This document shows, one piece after another, positions 1,633 through 33,447 of a stretch of DNA of 40,223 nt. The stretch's first letter is position 1; every line of letters starts with the position of its first letter. The notes below the pieces were generated by a model that searched no databases, was not told the origin of the DNA, and was given only the letters and a program-made list of their open reading frames with translations. A program made the translations under genes and the position numbers. This DNA is from a virus: the IMG/VR virus record IMGVR_UViG_3300031877_000338, positions 1 through 40,223 of that record; one strand, written 5' to 3'.

Positions 1633-3060
1633 ATGACTAGATTAGCTCTCTTGTCCGATGTAGAGAGAGACGTTGCTGCACCCATAGTAAACCTGGCTTC
1701 CAGATATATACCCACCAGAAAGCAGGTTGAGGCTCATCAAGCGTTTGAACGATTCATTCTATTTGGCGGCGCCATGGGGGGAGGGAAGTCGGCGTGGCTG
1801 TGCAATGAGGGCATACAGCTCTCATTAGATTACCCGGGCAACAGGGGTGGCGTCTTCAGGTGGGAGAACAAGACCTTCAGAAACACTACTCTCCACACCC
1901 TGGGCGAGTTTCTTCCTTCCGGGATCGTTGCCAGACACCATCTCTCAGACCAGTATTTCGACTTGATAAATGGCTCAAGGATTTATTATGGCGGCCTGAA
2001 GCCGGCAGGTAAGACTGCTCCTATTGATAACATCAAATCAATGGAGTTGGGATGGTTCGCTATTGACGAGGCTTCGCAGGTACCGGAGGAGATGTTCCTT
2101 ATACTGGCATCGCGTTTGAGGTTGAGTATCGAGGGCATCCGCTATCGTGGGTTACTTGCATCCAATCCAGAGCACAGTTGGGTCAGAAGGCGGTTTATCG
2201 ATCAGAAGTTGCGTGATCACAGGTTCGTACCGGCTCTACCGAAGGATAACCCGCATCTGCCACCTGATTACGAGGCCAGATTGAGAGAGCTTTTTCCGGC
2301 AGACTGGATCAAGCGGTACATTGATGGCGATTGGGACGTATCATTAGAGGGGCTGTATGTCTTCCCCTATATGTGGGTCAAGGCCGCCGTCGAGCGCGAT
2401 CTGGAGCCAGAAGAAACCTGCGAGATCGGGATAGATATAGGTGCAGGTGGAGATAAGACCGTAGCTGCTGGCAGGTGGGGGCCGGTGGTAAGAATTCTCC
2501 ACACCTCGCAGTTTTCTAATACCATGCAGACCACCGGCATCCTCGCATCGGTCCTGGACGAGCATAAACCCAGAAGAACCAGGATGGATGTGGTCGGCGT
2601 CGGAAAGGGGCCTTATGATAGGCTTATCGAGCAGGGGTATGATGTCCAGCCCTACATCGCTGGCGGTGAGCCGACAGATAAATCCCGATTCCTAAATCGC
2701 CGGGCTGAAGATCATTGGCATCTGAGGGACCTACTGGAGGAGGGCGATATCGATCTCCCTGATGATCCAGTTCTCACTTCTCAAATGTGTAGCATCAAAT
2801 ACGAGATCCAGTCCGATAAGAGGATCAAAATCGAGGGAAAAGAGGAGATGAAGGCGCAGGGAAAACCATCTCCGGATACAGCGGAGGCGGTAGTCATAGC
2901 GTGCTCTGAAAACGAACCAGCGCGAAAGGGAAGAGTCCTTGTCCTGGGCGCGCCGAAAAGAAAAGAAAACCAAATAACTGGAGAGCCAGAGAGCCAGAAG
3001 AGAAGATTAGAGCGAAGGACTGCCGGAAGCAGGATAAGAGGGAGGGTTAAGGTGGTATGA
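1633..3060 (+). CDS. terL: Terminase large subunit
   Basis: 475 residues, a normal length. TerL is the packaging motor and nuclease that cuts concatemeric DNA and pumps it through the portal. Walker A reads GGAMGGGKS with the lysine at residue 52. Walker B reads WFAIDEAS with the catalytic acids at residues 145-146. A coupling-like LLASNPE follows. The C-terminal RNase-H-type nuclease starts near residue 267 with EIGIDIGAGGDKT, which supplies the first metal-binding aspartate. A GAGGAG site precedes ATG 1633. The stop overlaps the portal start (ATGA), so the two are translationally coupled. Confidence 0.95.
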   Translation: MTRLALLSDVERDVAAPIVNLASRYIPTRKQVEAHQAFERFILFGGAMGGGKSAWLCNEGIQLSLDYPGNRGGVFRWENKTFRNTTLHTLGEFLPSGIVARHHLSDQYFDLINGSRIYYGGLKPAGKTAPIDNIKSMELGWFAIDEASQVPEEMFLILASRLRLSIEGIRYRGLLASNPEHSWVRRRFIDQKLRDHRFVPALPKDNPHLPPDYEARLRELFPADWIKRYIDGDWDVSLEGLYVFPYMWVKAAVERDLEPEETCEIGIDIGAGGDKTVAAGRWGPVVRILHTSQFSNTMQTTGILASVLDEHKPRRTRMDVVGVGKGPYDRLIEQGYDVQPYIAGGEPTDKSRFLNRRAEDHWHLRDLLEEGDIDLPDDPVLTSQMCSIKYEIQSDKRIKIEGKEEMKAQGKPSPDTAEAVVIACSENEPARKGRVLVLGAPKRKENQITGEPESQKRRLERRTAGSRIRGRVKVV

Positions 3061-4517
3061 TACCTAAGTCATTAGCAGAAGCGTCAAGTGTACTCCGTCA
3101 ACGTCTGGCAAGCAGGATATGGACTCCTCCGCCCGTACCTGAAGTGAAGGCTCCGGCACCCGAAAAGAAGAGGGGTAGAGTGTTCATCTACACCGATAGG
3201 GGCAAGATTATCCCTTATTCAGAGCTTGAGAAGTTCGATATCAGGAAATCTTCGGGGCAGATAGAGGAGGAGGCCGCATGGGGTGAGGGAAAGGGGCTGG
3301 CCTCCAGACCATGCGATCCAACTACACTGCTTTTAGTCTGGGAGACTGACCCCATACTTTTCCGCATAATCGATCAGATCGCCATTGATACGGTCGGACA
3401 GGGCTGGATACTTACGCCAAGAGACGGAGAGAAGGGGAATCAGTCAGAGAAAGATCAGATTGAGGAGCTGCTAAACGGACCAAACCCTGAGCAGTCATTA
3501 GAAGATATACTCTCCAGCATGATCATAGACCTGGAGGGTATAGGTTACTGCTCAATGGAGTGCGTGCGCAATAACGGCGGGAAACTGGCGGAGCTTTATG
3601 ATCTGCCGGCACACACTCTTTGGGTACATAAGGGCGAGCCCGGACGGCGAAGATATAAATTCTGTCAGAAGCGGGGCCTGCAGGAGGTATGGTTCAAGCG
3701 ATTCGGGATAGTGGAGAATTTCTCCGCCGCTACTGGCGATGAGGGCGAATTCACTGGCGAGGCTGCCGCACATGAGCTTATTTACTTGAAACTACACTAC
3801 AGGCTGAACGATTATTATGGCATCCCACCTCTCTTGCCTGCCTTAGCCTCAGTTTTAGGGCTGATCGGTATAAGGTCATATAACAGGTCATTCTTCGATA
3901 ACTATGGTATACCTGCCTACATGGTCACACTTACTGGAGAATGGGAAGAAGGGTCGGACGACGACATTGCCCGGTTCCTGAGTACCGAAGTCAAAGGAAG
4001 CGAGAACGCGCACAGGACGATCGTCCTTCAATTGCCGGAGGGCGGAGAGATTAAACTGGCTCCGGTATCAGTTACGGAGAGGGAAGGCTCTTTCAGGATA
4101 TTCAATCAGATATGGCGTGAGGATGTTCTGGCAGCTTACGCTATGCCACCGTACAGGATCGGAATCATGCCGGCAACTGGCAGGCTTGGCTCTGGCAAAG
4201 AAGCTCAGGAACTTACGGAGGTATATATACACAGTACAGTCGAGCCGCTACAGAGAAGATTTGAGAATATGATGACACAAAGGATAATCCAGCAGGGACT
4301 CAAATTCAATTCCTGGAGCTTCAAACTGAATGACCTTGACATTAGGAACGTGGCAGCGGAGGTGGAGATGTATAACAGTCTGGTAGCACACGGCGCGATG
4401 ACACCTAACGAAGAAAGAGCGAAGCTGGCAATTGGCGACCCTTATCCAGGGGGTGCTAAATTCTACATGAGCACATCGCTGAAAGAAATAGCAGGGGCAG
4501 GAGGAGGCAAGAAGTGA
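3057..4517 (+). CDS. Portal protein
   Basis: 486 residues. It forms the dodecameric ring at the capsid vertex through which DNA passes. Family hallmarks are the N-terminal LVWETDPILFRIIDQIA, the DLPAHTLWVH strand, YYGIPPLLPALASVLG, and the C-terminal REDVLAAYAMPPYRIG with the helix after it (HSTVEPLQRRFENMM), as in PBSX/HK97-like portals. It overlaps terL by 4 nt at its start and the next gene by 4 nt at its end. The proline-rich stretch at residues ~23-40 is variable in the family. Confidence 0.92.
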   Translation: MIPKSLAEASSVLRQRLASRIWTPPPVPEVKAPAPEKKRGRVFIYTDRGKIIPYSELEKFDIRKSSGQIEEEAAWGEGKGLASRPCDPTTLLLVWETDPILFRIIDQIAIDTVGQGWILTPRDGEKGNQSEKDQIEELLNGPNPEQSLEDILSSMIIDLEGIGYCSMECVRNNGGKLAELYDLPAHTLWVHKGEPGRRRYKFCQKRGLQEVWFKRFGIVENFSAATGDEGEFTGEAAAHELIYLKLHYRLNDYYGIPPLLPALASVLGLIGIRSYNRSFFDNYGIPAYMVTLTGEWEEGSDDDIARFLSTEVKGSENAHRTIVLQLPEGGEIKLAPVSVTEREGSFRIFNQIWREDVLAAYAMPPYRIGIMPATGRLGSGKEAQELTEVYIHSTVEPLQRRFENMMTQRIIQQGLKFNSWSFKLNDLDIRNVAAEVEMYNSLVAHGAMTPNEERAKLAIGDPYPGGAKFYMSTSLKEIAGAGGGKK

Positions 4518-7500
4518 GGATAGAGAATATAACGGAAGAAAACTTGAGGCAAGCTACCGATAATGAGCTTTACTCTCTCCGCCTGCGGTTCATGCAACTT
4601 CCTGGCTGGTTCGCTAAGAACCCTCTTATAACACCAGATTGGGGTGCGGTATTCGCCAAAGCCTCTCTTTTAGCGGATGAAATAAAGAATCGTCCATCTA
4701 TATCTATCGATCCCGATGAATGGTTGTCAACTTATAAGCAAAGGGACAGTCAAGAATTTTATATAAGGGCTATTGGTGCCATGGCTCAAACTCGCTCAAA
4801 GCAAGGGAAGCACTTCTGTCTTTTAATTCACCATAAGGACTCCGATATACTTGTCGATCCCGCTGTGCCAGCGCGTGAGATTGAAGCTTCTCCCACTGTT
4901 ATTATTATCACCCAGGCGGATCGCGATCACTGGACGCACTTAGGCGACTTTGCTACTGTGCCCCTGTACTCGACCGGCTCCATCCTGGATCAGATCGATT
5001 CTTCCTTCGCTACAGGAAAAAGACATCCCTTCCTGAAGCCTATCTCCTTCGATGGTTTAGTCATACGCCCGATCAGAACCATCCACAGAGTAGGTTCTCC
5101 ATCTATAGGTATCAGAGTTGAGCGAGGACGACACAAGGTCTCTATCCTTCCCGAATTCCTTCGACTTGGCGAAGCGGAGCGCGAACTGATCGCTGGCACG
5201 GCCTGGATCGCAGGTTGTGGAGACTACGAGGATGATGATGAAGAGGCTGGCAAACTATCATTCAAATCGCTAATGGATTTAGCAGATGAACTAAAACCGA
5301 GGGCAGTTTTCTTAACCAATTTGAGGACGGCGCTGTTAAAGCACAGGAATGCTGTCAGGCTTGCGCTTTCTAACTTCGATGGCCAGATATTGATGGATGG
5401 GGATACCGTCCAGTCAGAAGAGCTTGAAAAATCCGATACGCCGGGCATATACCTCGTACCACCTCACGGACAATGGATTTGGGAGGGAAAGAAAAAGCTG
5501 ATAATTAAGGCTAAGGAATTCCCAAACATGGTGAACGTACCATTGGTACTGGTATCAGGGAAGAAAGCATATGGAGTTATCCGTCTGCATAAGCCTAACA
5601 AGATTGACTTAAACGGATTCGACCTGACCAGAATGGGCCACTTAATCTCTGATAAAGAGCGAGTTGACTGGTGGGGTGGGTGGCGAAAAGAGTTTTATGC
5701 CTATGATTTTGACATAATCGAGAAGTATCAAAAGCCACGGTCTGTGATTGCTCCACGTGGAGCACAGACATTCATTGAGGATGTCAAATTCGAGGATGCT
5801 GTAAGGAAGGCATCCGCCTGGGGCCTGGCGAAGCCATCATACAGGATTTTTTCTCTCGAGGACCTGAAAAACACGCCCGGATTTGATAAGGGGCGGGCTG
5901 TCATTGAATCAAAATTTGACGGGGTCCGCGCTAGGGTAGAGCGAGGTGATAACGGCGAAGTCAGGATAATGACCGACCCGGAAGAGACAGCTACCCCCAT
6001 AAAGACCAAGCGGCTACCCTGGCAGGCTAAGGAATTAGAGAAGCTGCCCGGGGGCGGCTTTTCGCTGGATGCAGAGATCGTGATGGTAAAAGATGGTGAG
6101 TGCCTGCACAGAACATCAGTAAACGCTTTAATAAACGGCAAATTCGACCCGACCGAAGCATCGAAATTAGCTCACATCTATGTCTTTGATATTCTTGAAT
6201 TTGAGGGAAAATCACTCAAAAACGCTCCGCTAGAAGAGCGAAAAGAGGAGTTAGCGAGGTTCTCAGATTCGGAGCACATACACTTCATTCGCCCGACCAT
6301 ATCGTTAGATAAACCTTCATTATCATACGTCGTGGACCTGGAGCGGGCCGCTGATGTACAAAAAGCTCTTTCCCATTTGTTAAGTTACGCTCACAAAGGC
6401 GGCCCGTTCCCAAAGAAAATATCCGAGGGATGCATGATAAAGAAGCTGGACTCACCATACACTGGCAAGACGTGGGTTAAGTTCAAGGAGGAGTACGAGG
6501 TAGATTGCCTCGTGGTGGGGAAGCATGAGATCATCAGAGAAGGGAAGAAAACCGGAAACTGGAACTATGACCTCGCTGTCGGCGCCATTTCGCGTCCGTG
6601 GGCGGAGGCCATATCACGGAGTAATAAAAAGGCTGTCATTGAATTTGAGGGAAAATTCTACAATATCACAGGCAAGAGCGACAACACCGGGCAAGATGTC
6701 AGAGTCGGGTCTATTCTTAGAGTCGCTGCGGAGGACGTTAACCGATTTGAGACAGATAACCCGGAGTATCCGTACTACAAGACATACGTCGCCAGAGTGA
6801 AGCAGCCAGTACCGGAACGACATAACCCTGACAGTATGTTTGTCCTCCAGAGATTATCTGAGATGACTCCCAGACGCGAAACATTCGTCAAGGCAGGCAT
6901 CCAGGACGATATGAAGGTGTCTATAGAAGCGGGGAAGATACCGAGAGAGATATATAACAAGTATGCGGGCGAAGGCGACCCGTTACCAGCGGAGTTTTAT
7001 ACTGACTACCGGAAAGGCACGGCATGGCTGCAGAGCCACTTGCGCGGGATCAAGCAAGAGGATAGAGAAGCCTATGAGAAGAAGGAAGTATCCTTCGCGG
7101 ATACAATAAAGGGGCACTCAATTCATCTAGATTTAAGGCTTAGCATTGAAGGTCTACCAAAGCTAGTTCAGTACGTTATAACCGAATCGGATGTGCCATC
7201 TTACTTCAGGATGCTGAGGGGCGAAAAGCGGGAGACTGCCGGTGGAGTGGAGAACGTCCAACATTCGTTTATAGTTATCAAACCTTCGGCGCTTCAAGAA
7301 CCAGAGGTAAAGAAAGCGGAGGAGGAACTAATAATAGATGAGTCCGGCTCGAAACTGATAGCAGATTATCAGATATTTGGAAAGAGCTATTGGATACCGC
7401 CCGGAGAGGTGGGGTCTTCGGCTTATAAATACGCCTGGATGGGGTTACTATGGACAGGAACAGTTCGCGGCGGAATAATGCGCCGTGATTATAAAGAGCT

Positions 7501-7747
7501 ATTCTTCTATCCAGATCGTGATTTACCTAAAAAGAATAAGGAGCTTCTGGATGGGAAATTTATAATCAAATGTCTGAAGCGGCCGGAGGGTACAGCACGA
7601 TGGGAAATCTGGAGGGCCACGAAGGATCCATGGCCGCAGGACCCGATTGAGCACAAAGATTCTGGAGATTGGTATCCTGTTAAAGCAGAGGATGTGAAAT
7701 CTTTTGGTAGAGAGCACTACACTTACGGAAGAAAAGAGCCAGAGTAA
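4514..7747 (+). CDS. Multidomain ATP-dependent DNA ligase fusion with phosphoesterase-like C-terminus
   Basis: 1077 residues. From N to C: a degenerate metallo-beta-lactamase-like region (~80-290; TQADRDHW at 133-140 keeps only the D-H part of the HxHxDH motif), an ASCH- or PUA-like region (~315-430), and an ATP-dependent ligase core (~450-800). The ligase motifs are complete: I ESKFDG with adenylated Lys467, YVFDIL as motif III, SEGCMIKK as motif IV (Lys643), and WVKFK as motif V (Lys656). The last ~230 residues contain GHSIHLDLRL (His868, His871, Asp873, Arg875), which recalls the phosphoesterase domain of bacterial LigD. It is translationally coupled to portal. A ligase inside a head operon suggests an end-repair role before or during packaging, which is inference. 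The start is GTG 4514 overlapping the portal stop. Confidence 0.8.
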   Translation: MRIENITEENLRQATDNELYSLRLRFMQLPGWFAKNPLITPDWGAVFAKASLLADEIKNRPSISIDPDEWLSTYKQRDSQEFYIRAIGAMAQTRSKQGKHFCLLIHHKDSDILVDPAVPAREIEASPTVIIITQADRDHWTHLGDFATVPLYSTGSILDQIDSSFATGKRHPFLKPISFDGLVIRPIRTIHRVGSPSIGIRVERGRHKVSILPEFLRLGEAERELIAGTAWIAGCGDYEDDDEEAGKLSFKSLMDLADELKPRAVFLTNLRTALLKHRNAVRLALSNFDGQILMDGDTVQSEELEKSDTPGIYLVPPHGQWIWEGKKKLIIKAKEFPNMVNVPLVLVSGKKAYGVIRLHKPNKIDLNGFDLTRMGHLISDKERVDWWGGWRKEFYAYDFDIIEKYQKPRSVIAPRGAQTFIEDVKFEDAVRKASAWGLAKPSYRIFSLEDLKNTPGFDKGRAVIESKFDGVRARVERGDNGEVRIMTDPEETATPIKTKRLPWQAKELEKLPGGGFSLDAEIVMVKDGECLHRTSVNALINGKFDPTEASKLAHIYVFDILEFEGKSLKNAPLEERKEELARFSDSEHIHFIRPTISLDKPSLSYVVDLERAADVQKALSHLLSYAHKGGPFPKKISEGCMIKKLDSPYTGKTWVKFKEEYEVDCLVVGKHEIIREGKKTGNWNYDLAVGAISRPWAEAISRSNKKAVIEFEGKFYNITGKSDNTGQDVRVGSILRVAAEDVNRFETDNPEYPYYKTYVARVKQPVPERHNPDSMFVLQRLSEMTPRRETFVKAGIQDDMKVSIEAGKIPREIYNKYAGEGDPLPAEFYTDYRKGTAWLQSHLRGIKQEDREAYEKKEVSFADTIKGHSIHLDLRLSIEGLPKLVQYVITESDVPSYFRMLRGEKRETAGGVENVQHSFIVIKPSALQEPEVKKAEEELIIDESGSKLIADYQIFGKSYWIPPGEVGSSAYKYAWMGLLWTGTVRGGIMRRDYKELFFYPDRDLPKKNKELLDGKFIIKCLKRPEGTARWEIWRATKDPWPQDPIEHKDSGDWYPVKAEDVKSFGREHYTYGRKEPE

Positions 7748-8144
7748 TTTAGCGCGGGTTGAAATAATCAAAGCCGACAGCGACCATTACGGGCCTTTCG
7801 TCAAGATTCGCGTACATAACAACGGCAATATTGGCGGCTGGTTTTATGCACGACTGGACACAGGAGCGGATATTAGCATCATGCCTGAATCCTTCCTGGG
7901 AGTTGGTAGGCCGAACCTGTATAGAGGACCACTTGATCTCTACTCCGCTATGGGAGATATAATAGCGAAGAAGGTTACGCCAATGAGCTGTGAGATAGAG
8001 ATAATTGGCATAACAGAAATTTTCAAGCCGGTAAATGGTGTGTTGGCTTCCGATAAGAGGAGCACAGGTTTGATCGGCATGGATATATTGACAGAGTGTA
8101 TTGTATATCTTTATAATGGTGGAGGTGTGATTTGTCGAAGGTGA
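7704..8144 (+). CDS. Retropepsin-like aspartic protease
   Basis: 146 residues with the single-lobe aspartic protease pattern: ARLDTGADISIMP (catalytic DTGA near residue 53), a strand-flap-strand region, then TGLIGMDIL near residue 121, matching the conserved hydrophobic-Gly-x-Asp end of retropepsins such as DDI1, SASP and bacterial PerP-like proteins. Such enzymes act as homodimers. It overlaps the ligase-fusion gene by 44 nt. TTG 7704 is the most likely start, with GAGG about 12 nt upstream; no ATG or GTG is available before the conserved part. Because a serine-type XkdF protease is also present, this one may cut a specific virion or host protein. Confidence 0.72.
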   Translation: MVESTTLTEEKSQSNLARVEIIKADSDHYGPFVKIRVHNNGNIGGWFYARLDTGADISIMPESFLGVGRPNLYRGPLDLYSAMGDIIAKKVTPMSCEIEIIGITEIFKPVNGVLASDKRSTGLIGMDILTECIVYLYNGGGVICRR

Positions 8145-8846: not shown

Positions 8847-9761
8847 ATGTCTTTTGAGCTTGCAAAGATACAGGAGTTAACACGAACAGGCGAAGTGGAC
8901 TTAGAAAAATCAGGAGAGCGTATCATCAGGAACGCGCCTCAATTTGTCTGGATAGAAGGATTCCTGTGCGCCGCTGGATCGTACTTTTACGAGCGTGAGG
9001 ATGATCGAGAACCCAACGATATTGACGTGATCGTCCGCGCGGATGAGGACGATCATGGATTCAAGGTAGCCCTTGGCGCCGATTTGCGGTTAAAAGTAGA
9101 TAGGATTCTCGAAGCCAGAACCGGTCTGAAGTCAAGCCATTGGCACGCTGAACCGCACGGCCCGGACTGGAGGTATCAGCCGCTCTACGATCTGGTCTTA
9201 GCGCCACACAAACCGGAAGAAGTCAGAGAGGTAAACGAGCCTGAGTTTGCCAGCGAATTTTATAAAACTTACGCGAGAGATAAATGTATGGAGTGCGGAG
9301 AGCCACCTGAATTTGAAATCCTTTGGGCGGAGGGGATGGCGCACGCGTGGTTTTGTTCAAAACATACTGGCGAATTTATAAGACAGCGTAGCGAAGATAT
9401 AGACTACATAAAAGCTGTGGACGAAACGGCCTCAATAAAATTCCAGAACAACAGGGGTCCCAATATCAAAGATAAACTGATTGCAGAATTCCTAAAACTG
9501 GATTTACCATCATTCCGCCAGGAAGGAATAGACGATGACCTGAAAGACCCGAAGGCTAATTGGAAGGAATTACTTGCTGATCATCGCTATCTGCACATTG
9601 GTTACTATAGGTTAAAATCAGGAAAGAAGTGGGGAGATTGGACTGAGGGCGATGTGGTGAGCTATCACGCGGCGGTGATATCAGCATTAAGAAAGCTATT
9701 TTTTCCCATGATACCCATGAGGCTTGGAGAAAAAGAATGCGGGATCACTACTACCATCTGA
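8847..9761 (+). CDS. Pol-beta-superfamily nucleotidyltransferase with zinc motif
   Basis: 304 residues. The nucleotidyltransferase signature is readable: Gly44-Ser45, then Asp58-Ile-Asp60 (NDIDVIV), and a third acidic position at Asp115 in the strand LYDLVLAP. A putative zinc site follows with C147-x2-C150 and the downstream FCSKH. The C-terminal third is helical (DLPSFRQEGIDDDLKDPK). Such enzymes transfer nucleotides to nucleic acids, proteins or small molecules. Together with the ligase fusion this may form an end-processing set (inference). Start is ATG 8847 with GAGGTG 6 nt before it. Confidence 0.65.
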   Translation: MSFELAKIQELTRTGEVDLEKSGERIIRNAPQFVWIEGFLCAAGSYFYEREDDREPNDIDVIVRADEDDHGFKVALGADLRLKVDRILEARTGLKSSHWHAEPHGPDWRYQPLYDLVLAPHKPEEVREVNEPEFASEFYKTYARDKCMECGEPPEFEILWAEGMAHAWFCSKHTGEFIRQRSEDIDYIKAVDETASIKFQNNRGPNIKDKLIAEFLKLDLPSFRQEGIDDDLKDPKANWKELLADHRYLHIGYYRLKSGKKWGDWTEGDVVSYHAAVISALRKLFFPMIPMRLGEKECGITTTI

Positions 9762-9795: not shown

Positions 9796-10302
9796 GTGGG
9801 TAAAGCACAGTGGGCTATAGAATTGGATTTCCGCTCCGCGAGACAGGAGACGATAAAGCCACCCTCAGAGTCAGAGGTCAAAGAGTGGGACGAAAAACGA
9901 GGGCAGCTTCTAAAGGAAATCTCCAAGTTCGTCTCCATAATCCAGAAGAAGGAGGACGAGCGGATCGTCTGTGGAGTGGTGTACGAGCCGGACATAGTAG
10001 ATGCACAAGGCGATAGGGCGTCGGAAACGGAGATAAAGAAGGCCTGCTACAAGTTCATGGAGAACGTACAGAGGTTCGGAGAGAACCACGTCAGGGACTC
10101 CATCAGATGGGCATTTGGGGCGAAGCCGATCGCAAAGGTGCTGGAGAACTACATCGCGCCTGTGGATTTCATGATAGAGAGTCAGCTTGTAAGGAGAGGC
10201 AGTTGGGTTCTGATAACCAGGGTGATGGATGAGGAAATCTGGGCGAAGATAAAGTCCGGTGAGATAACTGGCTACTCCATGGCTGGAAGGTCAAAGCATT
10301 AG
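9796..10302 (+). CDS. XkdF-type prohead protease, N-terminal catalytic part
   Basis: 168 residues matching the XkdF putative serine protease domain: CGVVYEPDIVDAQGD near residues 54-68, a conserved histidine in FGENHVRDS, the VDFMIES strand, WVLITRVMDEEIWAKIKSGE, and the ending TGYSMAG near residues 159-165, where a catalytic serine is expected. In related proteins the chain continues into a region of the type LxDLDLDEISxVxxPAN, which here begins the next ORF 460 bp downstream. GTG 9796 is preceded by AGGAGG. It probably matures the prohead by cleaving scaffold and capsid. Confidence 0.85.
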   Translation: MGKAQWAIELDFRSARQETIKPPSESEVKEWDEKRGQLLKEISKFVSIIQKKEDERIVCGVVYEPDIVDAQGDRASETEIKKACYKFMENVQRFGENHVRDSIRWAFGAKPIAKVLENYIAPVDFMIESQLVRRGSWVLITRVMDEEIWAKIKSGEITGYSMAGRSKH

Positions 10303-10761: not shown

Positions 10762-11730
10762 ATGCAGGGGAATTTAGAGAAAAGGGATCTCAAAGACATA
10801 GACTTAGACGAGATCTCATTTGTTAAGACTCCAGCCAACAAGAGGACATTTCTTTTCTATAAGGGGCTGGAGAAAGCAGGCGACTACGTATGCCCTGAGT
10901 GTGGATACAAGAAAACGTTTGACAAACCTGTCCGTAATCCAAAGTGTCCGAAGTGTGGGACGATAATGGAGTGCGCGTCGGGGAAGTCGGAGGACGGATC
11001 AATGGAGCTTAAGAAAGATCAGAAGCTAGAGGAGTTTGTAAAGAGTTTTGAGGGCGATGGCTTCACCTGGGGTAGCATCGATCTGGCGAAAGAGTACAAA
11101 GAATTTCTGGGTGAGGAGATGGAGAGCGAGCAGGTTGAGAAGCAGAAGAAGCTACCTGAGAAGGTGTATAACGCCATCAAAGGGGCTTTCAATATCTTAA
11201 ACAAGTATAAGGACGACCTGCCATCGGACTTGAGGTCGGCTGTCGAGTCCTTAGCGAAGTACGCCGCTGGCAAGTATCCATACCCTAAGCCCTATAAGAA
11301 AGGCGAGGAGGAGGAGGGCGAGGATGTGGAGAAATCAGGCAAGAAGCTCTCGAAGGACACCATCGGAAAATTGATGGCGATCAGGAAGATCCTGGACGAA
11401 CTTCTACCAGAAGATGTGAAGAAGGCCCTCGAGGAAGAGGCGAAAGAGCCTGACCCTATCGCTATACTGAAGAGTATATCCGACAGTTTGACAGCCTTTG
11501 GCAAGCGGCTTGAGAAGCTGGAGAAGGGCGAAGGCGGGAAGGAAGAGTCCGGCGATGGCAAGGGTGAGGACGAAGGGCCAGCCGACGAAGTAACGAAGCA
11601 GCTAGAGGCCATTGCGGATCGGCTTGATACACTGGAGAAGCAGAAGCCGGCGAAGAAGGGCCTCGAGGGGGATGGCAAGGAAGAACTGGCAAAGTCAGAC
11701 GAGGATCTCTGGCCTAGTGTGAAGGTCTGA
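10762..11730 (+). CDS. XkdF C-terminal region fused to zinc ribbon and scaffold-like tail
   Basis: 322 residues. It opens with LKDIDLDEISFVKTPANK, which normally follows the XkdF protease domain in one chain. Next is a zinc ribbon (CPECG near residue 44, CPKCG near residue 63). The rest is very rich in Lys and Glu, with helices such as LTAFGKRLEKLEK and ADRLDTLEKQK, as expected for a scaffold or delta-type domain. An in-frame stop at 10756-10758 and GGGAGG 9 nt before ATG 10762 show it is translated separately. Thus the protease and scaffold halves are split by the RNA gene. The product probably guides prohead assembly and is removed by the protease. Confidence 0.75.
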   Translation: MQGNLEKRDLKDIDLDEISFVKTPANKRTFLFYKGLEKAGDYVCPECGYKKTFDKPVRNPKCPKCGTIMECASGKSEDGSMELKKDQKLEEFVKSFEGDGFTWGSIDLAKEYKEFLGEEMESEQVEKQKKLPEKVYNAIKGAFNILNKYKDDLPSDLRSAVESLAKYAAGKYPYPKPYKKGEEEEGEDVEKSGKKLSKDTIGKLMAIRKILDELLPEDVKKALEEEAKEPDPIAILKSISDSLTAFGKRLEKLEKGEGGKEESGDGKGEDEGPADEVTKQLEAIADRLDTLEKQKPAKKGLEGDGKEELAKSDEDLWPSVKV

Positions 11731-11847: not shown

Positions 11848-12966
11848 ATGCTTACTAACAGGCGACTACTTAACATGCAGGAGAAGGTGGACTTGATACA
11901 GAAGATGGTATCGCTGCCCGCCATTACGTTATCAGCGGAGGAGGCGGATAGGTTCATAGAGTGCGTCTGGGATCGGAGCGTGATGAAGAACCACGCGAGA
12001 TTGGTGAAGATGGATCACCAGACAAAGAACGTGAGGGCAATAGGTCTGGGCACATCCCGGATTCTGAAGCCGGCAGCCACCTTCACGCAGTCCGACTATG
12101 TAAAGGAATTTGAGGAGAACAGGATCCAGCTTTCGTCTAAGGAGCTTCGCGCCTGTGTTGTGATATACGACAAGGATCTAGAGGACATAAACGTTGGGAC
12201 GCCACAGGCGTTCAAGAACACGGTTATGTCCATGGTTCAGAAGAAGATGGCGGAGGAGCTAGACGAGATCTACTGGATAGCTGATAATCATAGTCTATCG
12301 GGATTCGCCAACACGGATGCCAGGAGCGTCATGGACGGTTGGCGATACCAGTTGGATCACAGCCAGTCAGGGGAGGATTATGAGAACGATGTGGTTGGTA
12401 GTTGCGTCCTTCTGGACGCGTCAAACACGATCGGGGCGAGGGCAGGCAGCTTCTCACTTACCACCAGTCAGGCTATAGCCGAGCAGAACGCAAGCGCGCC
12501 CTACAACTGGGAGTTTAAGTGGGTAGACATGCTGAAGTATCTACCTTCACAGTACAAGCTCGGGGGCTTGAAGAAGCTCAGGTTCTTCTTAAACGATCAG
12601 GTCCTGGACAACTACATAGAGGCATTGATGGATCGCTCCACTCCTTTAGGCGATAGCGTACTAACTGGAAAAGAGATGCTCCATTTCGGCATGGTTCCTG
12701 TAGTTCCGTGCCCGCTGATGCCGACGACTATGAAGATAGACACGGTGGACGCCCAGAAGGAAGCTCTGAAGTCGGATGGCACACTAACTGACTGTCTATT
12801 AACACACGAGGAAAACTTGATCATAGGTGTGCAGAAGGATATACAGATGGAGGGCGAGCGGTCGGCTGCTGATAGAGCCAACTACTTCTTCTTCACAATA
12901 CGAGCTGACGTGGCGATAGAAGATGTCCACGCGTGTGTACTGTTGAAGAGGTTGAAGGTAGTATGA
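11848..12966 (+). CDS. Major capsid protein, HK97-like fold
   Basis: 372 residues, typical length. It builds the icosahedral shell. Features are an N-terminal helical segment, an E-loop-like region with a conserved aromatic and charged pattern (AATFTQSDYVKEFEENRIQLSSKELRA at ~75-101), a long spine helix (AFKNTVMSMVQKKMAEELDEIYWI), the P-domain MLKYLPSQYK, and the C-terminal TIRADVAIEDVHACVLLK, a common ending of HK97-fold shells. Start is ATG 11848 with GAGGTG upstream. It is flanked by heptad tracts on both sides. Confidence 0.88.
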   Translation: MLTNRRLLNMQEKVDLIQKMVSLPAITLSAEEADRFIECVWDRSVMKNHARLVKMDHQTKNVRAIGLGTSRILKPAATFTQSDYVKEFEENRIQLSSKELRACVVIYDKDLEDINVGTPQAFKNTVMSMVQKKMAEELDEIYWIADNHSLSGFANTDARSVMDGWRYQLDHSQSGEDYENDVVGSCVLLDASNTIGARAGSFSLTTSQAIAEQNASAPYNWEFKWVDMLKYLPSQYKLGGLKKLRFFLNDQVLDNYIEALMDRSTPLGDSVLTGKEMLHFGMVPVVPCPLMPTTMKIDTVDAQKEALKSDGTLTDCLLTHEENLIIGVQKDIQMEGERSAADRANYFFFTIRADVAIEDVHACVLLKRLKVV

Positions 12967-25052: not shown

Positions 25053-25886
25053 TCATTTCAAGGAAGGGGCGTTTCTGTCAATCGTCGATGCCGAATAAGA
25101 CCTGGGGAGGGCAAGAATATCCGCATAGGTCTCATCATCCAGCAACCTTTTCAGGTTCGGCTTTATGATGATAGATTTTATGTGTTTTATCCTGCCCAAC
25201 TGGCAAACAAGCTCCTTGACGTCCTCTGGCGAGGGCTCTGGCAGAGGACAGACTCTCCAAAAGCTGTTAGCACCTATCACAACAATGCTAGCCTCAGTAT
25301 ATCCTACAAGACCTGCCAGGTTGACAGGATTATTCTTGATAATCGGCTCCACGGTCACCATTTTCTTTAGATTGGGCATACATTGGATACTACGGAGGCT
25401 CTCAGCCCGATCTACCGGTGCTTGTGGTGATTGGCAGTGAGTGATTTCTCTATACACCTTGCCATCCATATCAGTCTCGATGGTGGTGGCAAGTATAATT
25501 TTAAGGAAATCCCGAAACCAGTTAAAATTTCCAGCAAAAATGCTTCCAAATCTGTATGGTGACTTTGACTGGAGCAGATAAGTATTCTCCGGGAAAGCGA
25601 GGCAGTGAAGGAGGACACGCTGGATCCACCCTCTAGGAACCCAGTTGCCGAACATATCCGCCGCGCTCCCAACAAAGATCGTACCTTGACCGCACTCAAG
25701 AAGGTAGTCCTTCAGGTAGCTATCACGGAGTCGAGGCTTCATGTCAGAATGGAGTCTGCCATTTTTGATGTAGCAGTAGGAGCAATCATGCTCACAGCCG
25801 CAGATAGGGTTCCAGGTAGCAACCACAGGAGGGACTGTCGGGCCAATATATCCATACATATTTCCGACGCTTTTGTTCAAGCTCAT
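25053..25886 (-). CDS. Phage radical-SAM protein, DUF5131 / Gp37-Gp68 type
   Basis: 277 residues. The radical-SAM cluster motif is CGCEHDCSYC with cysteines at 31, 35 and 38 (C-x3-C-x2-C). The start TWNPICGC is characteristic of the DUF5131 family, which phages often carry and which is related to spore photoproduct lyase-like enzymes. Later motifs are GTIFVGSAADMFG and KKMVTVEPIIKNN. The reaction is unknown; DNA modification or repair is plausible. Minus-strand gene, ATG overlapping the upstream stop by 3 nt. Confidence 0.85.
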   Translation of the reverse strand: MSLNKSVGNMYGYIGPTVPPVVATWNPICGCEHDCSYCYIKNGRLHSDMKPRLRDSYLKDYLLECGQGTIFVGSAADMFGNWVPRGWIQRVLLHCLAFPENTYLLQSKSPYRFGSIFAGNFNWFRDFLKIILATTIETDMDGKVYREITHCQSPQAPVDRAESLRSIQCMPNLKKMVTVEPIIKNNPVNLAGLVGYTEASIVVIGANSFWRVCPLPEPSPEDVKELVCQLGRIKHIKSIIIKPNLKRLLDDETYADILALPRSYSASTIDRNAPSLK

Positions 25887-31764: not shown

Positions 31765-33447
31765 TTAGAATGGCGTATCGTCAATAGCTTCTGGCTCTCC
31801 GGCTATCTGGCTTTCCGGTTCCTTTTCTCCTATCGGTGGAGTAAACTGGATAGGAGATCCCGACTCAGCAACGGCGGACGCAAACTCAATCTGCCAGGTC
31901 TCCCAATGGTCGGGTTTAATATCAGCTAAACGGTAGAGGCCGCCAACTGGCTTGACCTCCATCCTCTTAAAGAATCCATCCATGACTTTCACGCCGATAT
32001 TCGGGTCGTCAAGCTGGATAAGAAATTCGTAGACGGTGGAGATGAAGCTCTCCACCTCTTCTACGCCGCCCACCCACTCAGCCCACTCGATGTGCATCTT
32101 GACCGCTTCCCTCAGCCTCGTGAGCACCTTGTTGTCGCCGATAGCTCTCGCCAAAAGAGTACGTATGTCGTCGCTCGCTCCCGCAAACGGCGCAGTGTAT
32201 CGGCACTTCAGGTAAAAGACGAGGTTATCCAGAGAGCCTGTCCTGGACGCGACATCACGGATAGCTTGAAATACAGGCTTTATCTTTTTAAGCTCCTCCA
32301 GCAACGCGATCTGTTGGTCAGTGGACAAATCTTTGACCTCTGATACCTGCTGGCCGGTGGCGACCGGTAAACCATCGCCGTTAGTAGTGCAGGACTGGTA
32401 GTGGGTTCTCAGGTAGAGAGCGAAGGAGTCCGGAGTGAAGCCTGACTCGCCTGCAAGAGTAAGAATCTGATCTGGCAGGCCCACATCCTTCCTGGATAAT
32501 TCATCCTCAAGCGAAGGAAGCGCACCTATGGCTTTTGTGAAATACTCCTCAGAATCCCAATCTGTCAGGGATGGTCTATCAGGGAATAGCTCAGCTTGCC
32601 AGTTGTGCCTGTTCCCTTCATCCTGGAAGAAAGTGCGGACATGAGGGAATTTTATCTCTCCTGTCTTTTTGTCAGGGGCGAAGCTGGCGAAGTACCTGGC
32701 GCGCCAGTAGTCATAATCGAAGGCTGGTGGTTCCGGCTTCTGGCCTTTCTCCGGTTCGCCGGCTATCGGGCCTTCTGGCTTTCCTGTTTTTTGAGAGAAT
32801 CTAGCATCGCCGTTGGCTGCCGCTTCGGAGGTAAGATTCTCAGTCTGTGGAAGCTCCTCCGGGATGTATGGAAGGCTGCCACACTCACTAGGAAACAAAA
32901 GGCGGCTTCCTTGAGATATGGCGCACTTTTTGAGTTGGAAGGATGGCTGTGAACGGTGCATGGCTCTCTCCTTCATTCCGTCGCGAGACTGAACGAAGGC
33001 GACCTCTTTCCGAAGGACCGTCCATCTGAACTCCCTGGACCAGTCCCTTCGTTTGCAGATGTATGTGGCTCTGGTGGGGTTGTCATCGTCATCACAGACT
33101 GCATCCCAATACTCCACCAGTCCTGTCCTCTCCGCTCGGTCAAGGTACGAGCGGTAGCCGGTTATAGTAACAGCGTTACCGCCGGGCTTCGCCAGGTATA
33201 TCTCATTCTTCCAGGGGTCAAGGTGGCAGGCTTGACAGATAAGAATGAACGCCCTCACCTCGTCGTCTGTGCAGTTTGGGGGTGCGATAAACTGGCGGAC
33301 ATCTGAGAACTCCAATCTGATATCCGGTAGTGGCGGCGGCTGGTAGATAACAGGGTAGGGATGTGCCGCCTGTGGGTAGCGAATCTCTTCGGGAAATTCA
33401 CTCTCTTTGTCGGTTTCTGCCATCGTGAGAAGCTCTTTCTGTGACAT
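31765..33447 (-). CDS. recT: RecT-family annealing protein with long C-terminal extension and SSB-like tip
   Basis: 560 residues, about twice the size of RecT. The first ~200 residues fit RecT/Redbeta-type proteins: FIAPPNCTDDEVRAFILICQ, HLDPWKNEIYLAKPGG and VTITGYRSYLDRAERTG. They promote strand annealing in phage recombination. The remaining ~360 residues are mostly helical and unassigned. The chain ends in EAIDDTPF, which matches the DDxPF acidic tip of bacterial SSB that recruits repair proteins. GGAGGTG precedes ATG 33447. An ATTGATTTA operator half-site lies in its leader. Confidence 0.8.
   Translation of the reverse strand: MSQKELLTMAETDKESEFPEEIRYPQAAHPYPVIYQPPPLPDIRLEFSDVRQFIAPPNCTDDEVRAFILICQACHLDPWKNEIYLAKPGGNAVTITGYRSYLDRAERTGLVEYWDAVCDDDDNPTRATYICKRRDWSREFRWTVLRKEVAFVQSRDGMKERAMHRSQPSFQLKKCAISQGSRLLFPSECGSLPYIPEELPQTENLTSEAAANGDARFSQKTGKPEGPIAGEPEKGQKPEPPAFDYDYWRARYFASFAPDKKTGEIKFPHVRTFFQDEGNRHNWQAELFPDRPSLTDWDSEEYFTKAIGALPSLEDELSRKDVGLPDQILTLAGESGFTPDSFALYLRTHYQSCTTNGDGLPVATGQQVSEVKDLSTDQQIALLEELKKIKPVFQAIRDVASRTGSLDNLVFYLKCRYTAPFAGASDDIRTLLARAIGDNKVLTRLREAVKMHIEWAEWVGGVEEVESFISTVYEFLIQLDDPNIGVKVMDGFFKRMEVKPVGGLYRLADIKPDHWETWQIEFASAVAESGSPIQFTPPIGEKEPESQIAGEPEAIDDTPF

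Follow-up and report, generated by a model that had tools for sequence, protein, structure and literature searches.

The window analysed here, the whole 40,223-nucleotide stretch of the virus record IMGVR_UViG_3300031877_000338, carries within its head-gene module a single chain in which the nucleotidyltransferase core of an ATP-dependent ligase and a LigD-type 3'-phosphoesterase (PE) are joined to a metallo-β-lactamase (MBL) fold, an ASCH domain, a helical N-terminal segment (HEL) and a presumed OB-like region. The fusion of the same tools, in relatives, to the protease that matures the head shell suggests that a repair kit may travel inside the particle. It seems somewhat probable that this chain is a polyvalent-type enzyme for the healing and sealing of DNA ends, which would enter the prohead and be injected with the genome.

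Features of the window and of four related contigs, with positions in the respective sequence
Feature	Position	Strand	Remarks
Terminase large subunit	1633..3060	+	profile match
Portal protein	3057..4517	+	Pfam Phage_portal 2.9e-31
HEL-MBL-ASCH-ligase-OB-PE fusion, whole gene	4514..7747	+	1077 aa, GTG start
HEL, helical N-terminal segment	4514..4693	+	residues 1-60
Metallo-β-lactamase fold, PhnP/YhfI/RNase Z type	4748..5428	+	residues 79-305, degraded motif TQADRDH
ASCH domain, TTHA0113-like	5429..5773	+	residues 306-420
ATP-dependent ligase nucleotidyltransferase core	5840..6493	+	residues 443-660
Lys467 codon, motif I nucleophile (KFDG)	5912..5914	+	sequence motif
OB-like region, presumed	6494..6838	+	residues 661-775, named for its place behind the ligase core
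LigD-type 3'-phosphoesterase	6974..7693	+	residues 821-1060; putative Mn ligands His842, His871, Asp873, plus Arg875
Retropepsin-like aspartyl protease ORF, weak	7704..8144	+	RVP 2.8e-4; TTG start
NTase-like protein	8847..9761	+	domain shared with the NT module inside relatives' ligase polyproteins
XkdF (Peptidase_S78_2) head maturation protease	9796..10302	+	profile match
Scaffold-like protein	10762..11730	+	profile match
Major capsid protein candidate	11848..12966	+	phrog_1623 virion structural
ASCH-portal fusions	L010:38-1690, L018:4836-6452, L076:6369-8690, L077:2997-5309		C-terminal ASCH

The fusion gene runs for 1077 codons free of internal stops, its 5' end overlapping the stop of the portal gene, and a Shine-Dalgarno-like GGAGGAGG lies upstream with 6 bases between its end and the GTG. 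A chance reading frame was ruled out by this length, by the kept motifs and by a homologue with 57% identity. The terminase, portal, fusion, retropepsin-like, NTase-like, XkdF, scaffold-like and capsid-candidate genes follow one another in this order, all on the plus strand. The position between portal and protease, claimed in an earlier note made from the letters alone, was thus found to be correct, with the portal gene directly upstream and both the retropepsin-like ORF and XkdF downstream. The retropepsin-like ORF overlaps the ligase gene and has TTG as its sole start; two ORFs related to it were seen on contig L067. The NTase-like protein and the XkdF protease are separate nearby genes of the window, unfused to the ligase; the two form one ORF on L001, L005, L006, L067, L070, L071 and L072. 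An assembly frameshift as the cause of their separation in the window was rejected, XkdF having its own AAGGAGG before the GTG at 9796 and the NTase frame containing three stops. The NTase label was given because of a G/DxD pattern and weak Pfam matches (NTP_transf_2 in 5/29, DUF6932 in 7/29), the best relevant match of the NTase profile in the PDB being a minimal NTase at E 0.9. Elsewhere in the window, a DUF5131 protein is encoded at 25053-25886, a gp37/gp68-annotated gene being present also in the ANMV-1 virus, and a RecT-family protein at 31765-33447 on the minus strand.

The ligase core is matched by Pfam DNA_ligase_A_M over residues 459-658 (E 3.7e-16). Motif I with Lys467 (KFDG) is conserved in 65 of 66 family ligase domains, so that the loss of this lysine in homologues, which the earlier note had named as an argument against itself, did not occur; the motif IV and motif V lysines, Lys643 and Lys656, are present in 60/66 and 59/66 respectively, the remainder being gaps. 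The family profile finds its nearest matches in archaeal-type DNA ligases (3gde, E 4.1e-34) and in ligase I, and the LigD ligase domain 1vs0 trails far behind at 6.3e-15. The region that follows (OB) is conserved in the family, and the PDB profile matches stop before most of it.

The resemblance of the C-terminal GHSIHLDLRL to the LigD phosphoesterase, pointed out in the earlier note, is now supported by a predicted fold. In a model of residues 782-1077 (pLDDT 74.7) six LigD-PE entries of the PDB ranked on top with Z scores of 11.3, 10.9, 9.3, 9.1, 8.6 and 7.5, the next entry scoring 4.4, and the rmsd to these six was 2.4-4.6 Å over 112-122 residues; Foldseek alone gave the archaeal PE 3p43 at 8.3e-4. 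A profile of 28 PE domains retrieved six PDB chains at E values of 10 or below; LigD-PE chains made up the top five, individually weak (E 0.036-0.23) and named as PE from the entry titles. Pfam LigD_N was matched by 9 of the 28 members (best 1.2e-4), the window protein itself being unmatched. GHSIHLDLRL accordingly contains two putative ligands of the PE metal site, the second His and the Asp; the first His, His842, lies 29 residues further towards the N-terminus, the window clade carrying an insertion at this place. His842, His871 and Asp873 were equated with His42, His48 and Asp50 of LigD in a sequence alignment, and in Pseudomonas aeruginosa LigD these three residues are essential, the alanine mutants being dead (PMC8656161, in part). 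Among 81 PE copies, His871 and Asp873 are each conserved in 71, His842 in 62 and Arg875 in 74; the His equivalent to His871 is missing from 10/81 copies, and the Asp likewise from 10/81. The predicted fold and the kept catalytic residues suggest a putative activity in the healing of 3' ends, against which the copies without the His or the Asp speak.

For the N-terminal part, the AlphaFold model of residues 1-440 (pLDDT 87.4) placed the MBL domain next to PhnP (Z 25.6, 2.1 Å over 213 residues) and YhfI (Foldseek 8.5e-14); an alignment of 10 family MBL domains retrieved solved MBL proteins at 1.1e-16, and the window protein itself matched Pfam Lactamase_B_3 at 5.9e-4, under the curated cut-off. 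The MBL and PE folds, whose absence from predicted structures would have spoken against the earlier note, were thus both found. The HxHxDH motif reads TQADRDH in the window protein, and of the canonical metal ligands, those of HxHxDH and the downstream His/Asp/His, most are lost in its clade. The pattern TQ[AT][DE]xDH was seen in 7/7 members of the window MBL clade; of the family's 14 members with an MBL, four that lie outside this clade keep an intact THxHxDH. Since the metal motif is degraded, the domain is probably not catalytic and more probably serves for binding or as a structural element; it is thus probably not one of four active domains, as had been implied previously. An Artemis-like β-CASP nuclease was considered for this domain and rejected, since in fold it is nearest to PhnP, YhfI and RNase Z, and it no longer has the metal motif. 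A profile of 14 ASCH-region domains matched Thermus TTHA0113, presumably an ASCH protein, at E 2.6e-5 over profile positions 2-108 of 114. The HEL segment showed no clear relative in the PDB, the best match (E 0.091) being a coiled-coil chain and judged to be due to chance. All four domain readings of the earlier note (MBL, ASCH, ligase and PE) are consequently supported by profiles or predicted structures, and its count of four is raised to six modules by HEL (1-60) and OB (661-775).

The family comprises 72 distinct virus contigs, including the window and ANMV-1, with 33 ligase clusters at 60% identity. It was gathered by four viral-contig scans and one tblastn search with removal of repeats, by means of peptide patterns from the ligase region and with no selection for gene position; the exceptions are L001 and L002, found with patterns of the whole window protein, ANMV-1, found by tblastn, and the window. 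The repeat contigs L007, L014, L059, L068 and L069 were left out, as were L003, which is the window itself, and L013, the one weak, MBL-only match of a scan of genome contigs, which does not enter the contig counts; the near-identical pairs L040/L041 and L042/L043 remain among the 72. The labels NT, OB, HEL, scaf and MCP refer to local profiles iterated from one or two seeds.

Within the 33 clusters 30 different architectures were recognised, the domain order being shuffled and the ligase core with the OB-like region retained in nearly all members. The ligase ORF contains HEL on 48 of the 72 contigs and PE on 55 (64 if PE anywhere on the locus is counted); the other common modules are an NTase-like domain (55), a methyltransferase (32), and MBL and ASCH (14 each). 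D12 DNA adenine methyltransferase domains occur in the same chain as the ligase in relatives. The homologue of the window protein on L001, with the 57% identity mentioned above, is devoid of the ASCH domain. In the ORF L009:283-4293 the NTase-like domain is seemingly split by an intein-like insert at residues ~560-880 (LAGLIDADG_3 2.2e-5). The architecture had been called unusual, which is true against named phages, where the whole window protein, searched at E 1e-5, matched ANMV-1 alone and along one third of the chain; the PE domain alone had no match among named phages and the MBL domain alone one weak match. The protein is not unique, since its family is present on 72 virus contigs.

The association with head genes extends through the family. 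A portal gene was recognised on 48 of the 72 contigs and lies upstream of the ligase in 48/48, a scaffold or capsid gene was recognised on 36 and lies downstream in 36/36, and the ligase, portal, protease, scaffold and capsid genes, where recognised, share one strand on 72/72 contigs. XkdF is part of the ligase ORF on 24 contigs (11/33 clusters), is a downstream ORF on 24, including the window, and was not found on 24, of which 16 have at least 4 kb beyond the ligase; with at least 4 kb of flank, the portal is present upstream on 38/49 contigs and XkdF downstream on 32/48. In the fused ORFs examined with curated Pfam models, the ligase and Peptidase_S78_2 were located in a single chain in 5/5 cases. 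Moreover, the ASCH domain of the ligase-fusion family forms the C-terminal part of the portal protein on four contigs, these ASCH-bearing portals giving PHROGs portal matches of 2.5e-22 to 1.3e-13. As a control, two SPbeta-type phage ligases (one group) were inspected; their neighbours are an SOS-associated peptidase and genes that are for the most part hypothetical, and they lie outside a head module. With ligase and XkdF in one chain, at least the uncut form should be brought to where heads are assembled. That such proteins are packaged or act on DNA ends, as the earlier note proposed, is made plausible by the protease fusions and the ASCH-portal fusions.

According to the favoured reading, the fusion protein would be produced together with the head proteins of the virus and would enter the prohead beside the XkdF protease, as in the window, or fused to it, as in the relatives; it would then remain with the packaged DNA and be co-injected. 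Where ends are damaged or have been processed, the PE would remove a 3'-phosphate or 3'-ribonucleotide to leave a 3'-OH, and the ligase core, adenylated at Lys467, would seal the nick or join the ends, DNA rather than RNA being the presumed substrate. Binding of nucleic acid, or keeping the parts assembled, would probably fall to the ASCH domain and to the MBL with its degraded catalytic motif. The incoming genome could thus be repaired or circularised in the new cell ahead of viral gene expression. The best precedent for such loading is DdrB of phage P1, which has a C-terminal peptidase by which it is probably processed ahead of packaging into the head (PMC5512222, in part).

The protein could instead be a late cytosolic enzyme, which would seal nicks and clean ends in replicated DNA prior to packaging or while it proceeds and would not be borne by the particle; late expression alone would then explain why its gene lies in the head module. 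This is rather unlikely. It agrees with the protease being a separate downstream gene in the window and on 23 other contigs, and with phage Corndog, where four enzymes whose genes lie between those for the portal and the protease were undetected in twice-banded virions (PMC4351075, in part), so that gene position alone is no proof of packaging; it does not account for the ligase and the head maturation protease forming one chain on 24 contigs from 11 clusters, nor for the same ASCH family being joined to portals. The latter fusions, on four contigs, and the direct overlap of the fusion gene with the portal gene would fit the alternative raised in the earlier note, an accessory of the packaging motor, which would work jointly with the terminase and the portal at the ends that packaging cuts in the genome and would not be injected. 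Such a role is very improbable, for the scaffold, capsid and protease genes come after the ligase where recognised, and a fusion to an internal head protease would not be expected of it.

It is likewise improbable that the protein is a machine for the repair of RNA, for example tRNA, that counters host RNases, with the ASCH domain and the RNase Z-like fold holding the RNA, the NTase-like domain adding nucleotides, the PE trimming 3' ends and the ligase sealing the RNA. ASCH domains are PUA-like, the MBL is nearest to PhnP, YhfI and RNase Z, and RNA_ligase (5e-5) and mRNA_cap_enzyme (5.7e-5) were matched in one member each, both below the cut-off. The ligase profile, however, is overwhelmingly closest to DNA ligases, the PE is of the LigD type, D12 DNA adenine methyltransferase domains are part of the relatives' chains, and the catalytic motif of the MBL is lost in the window clade.

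The best precedent for a need of such an enzyme is phage Corndog, which has a Ku gene of its own and seems to close its genome into a circle via end joining (PMC4351075, in part). Ku was found in 0/31 virus records searched, which may be fragments and leave host Ku outside the view; end joining like bacterial NHEJ is thus unsupported, and any end joining would run without phage Ku or with that of the host. Against this background it is tempting to speculate on a Ku-less, virion-delivered end-joining kit, made as a head-maturation polyprotein by many uncultured tailed-virus lineages, carried by XkdF, cut in the prohead and injected. The kit would contain the NTase, the methyltransferase, the DNA ligase and the LigD-type PE, which might heal, methylate and close the incoming genome, and the window would represent a kit divided into separate genes. 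This extended proposal is tentative and, on the present data, doubtful. As for the hosts, TBP and PCNA were each found in 0/29 and MCM above the cut-off in 1/29, and archaeal hosts are therefore not shown.

Virion-carried enzymes have so far been described mostly as modifying host proteins, starting transcription or blocking restriction (PMC5512222, in part). If the favoured reading of an injected end-healing enzyme is true, tailed viruses would gain a kit for genome repair or circularisation that is active ahead of all viral transcription, and a general loading route would exist in the joining of cargo to the prohead protease, from which capsid cargo in uncultured viruses could be predicted by sequence. 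A clean test of packaging is offered by the fused forms, whose path should lead through the prohead.

The comparison with bacterial LigD showed that both proteins contain a ligase and a 3'-phosphoesterase of the same fold in one chain; the window protein has in addition MBL, ASCH and HEL, and its ligase is nearer to archaeal-type ligases and ligase I. No POL domain was detected in it, a Pfam search at E 0.1 over the 1077 aa giving the ligase and a weak MBL only. It was not classed as a LigD homologue because of the missing POL match, the absence of phage Ku from the records searched and the affinity of the ligase core to other ligases, POL being a weak criterion, as LigD has "up to three" domains and many lack POL in some species (PMC8656161, in part).

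The polyvalent proteins (Iyer et al. 2017, PMC5512222, in part) are likewise multi-domain chains encoded with portal and terminase genes; they include Pol-β-superfamily NTase domains, C-terminal peptidases such as that of P1 DdrB and effectors fused to portal or MuF, and are predicted to be packaged and injected. The window protein has several enzymatic domains per chain in the same portal-terminase setting and is grouped with them as an incomplete member, for which we infer packaging. Its family differs in having a core of ligase and LigD-type PE and, in relatives, XkdF as the fused protease. In the text of PMC5512222 the term "ligase" occurs 3 times, with two uses that concern RNA ligases in the 2H section, and "DNA ligase", "asch", "lactamase" and "xkdf" each occur 0 times.

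The ANMV-1 ligase AJP62006 (KP703175) has the arrangement ligase-OB-PE with an NTase-like N-terminus and is encoded directly behind a portal gene; its identity with the window protein is 26% over residues 443-799, and MBL, ASCH and HEL were not found in it. The product of that portal gene, AJP62005 (L004:1913-3193), is annotated as a MutT-like phage hydrolase, yet it matches Phage_portal_3 at 3.2e-22. The neighbouring AJP62007 (L004:5868-9368) is a very cysteine-rich protein of 1166 aa, the C-terminus of which resembles, by eye, a MuF-type motif. The word ligase is absent from the main text of the ANMV-1 paper. Besides ANMV-1, no ligase-PE polyprotein of a named phage was present among the matches listed (30 of 473 and 30 of 53), and the open-licence literature searched, partly in broad terms, yielded no account of a head maturation protease joined to a DNA ligase, which is weak evidence of absence. 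XkdF joined to a nucleic-acid enzyme does occur in reference phages, with a D12 methyltransferase in phrog_13242 and in phrog_14859, named RNA ligase, as deduced from separate matched profile regions and the family names.
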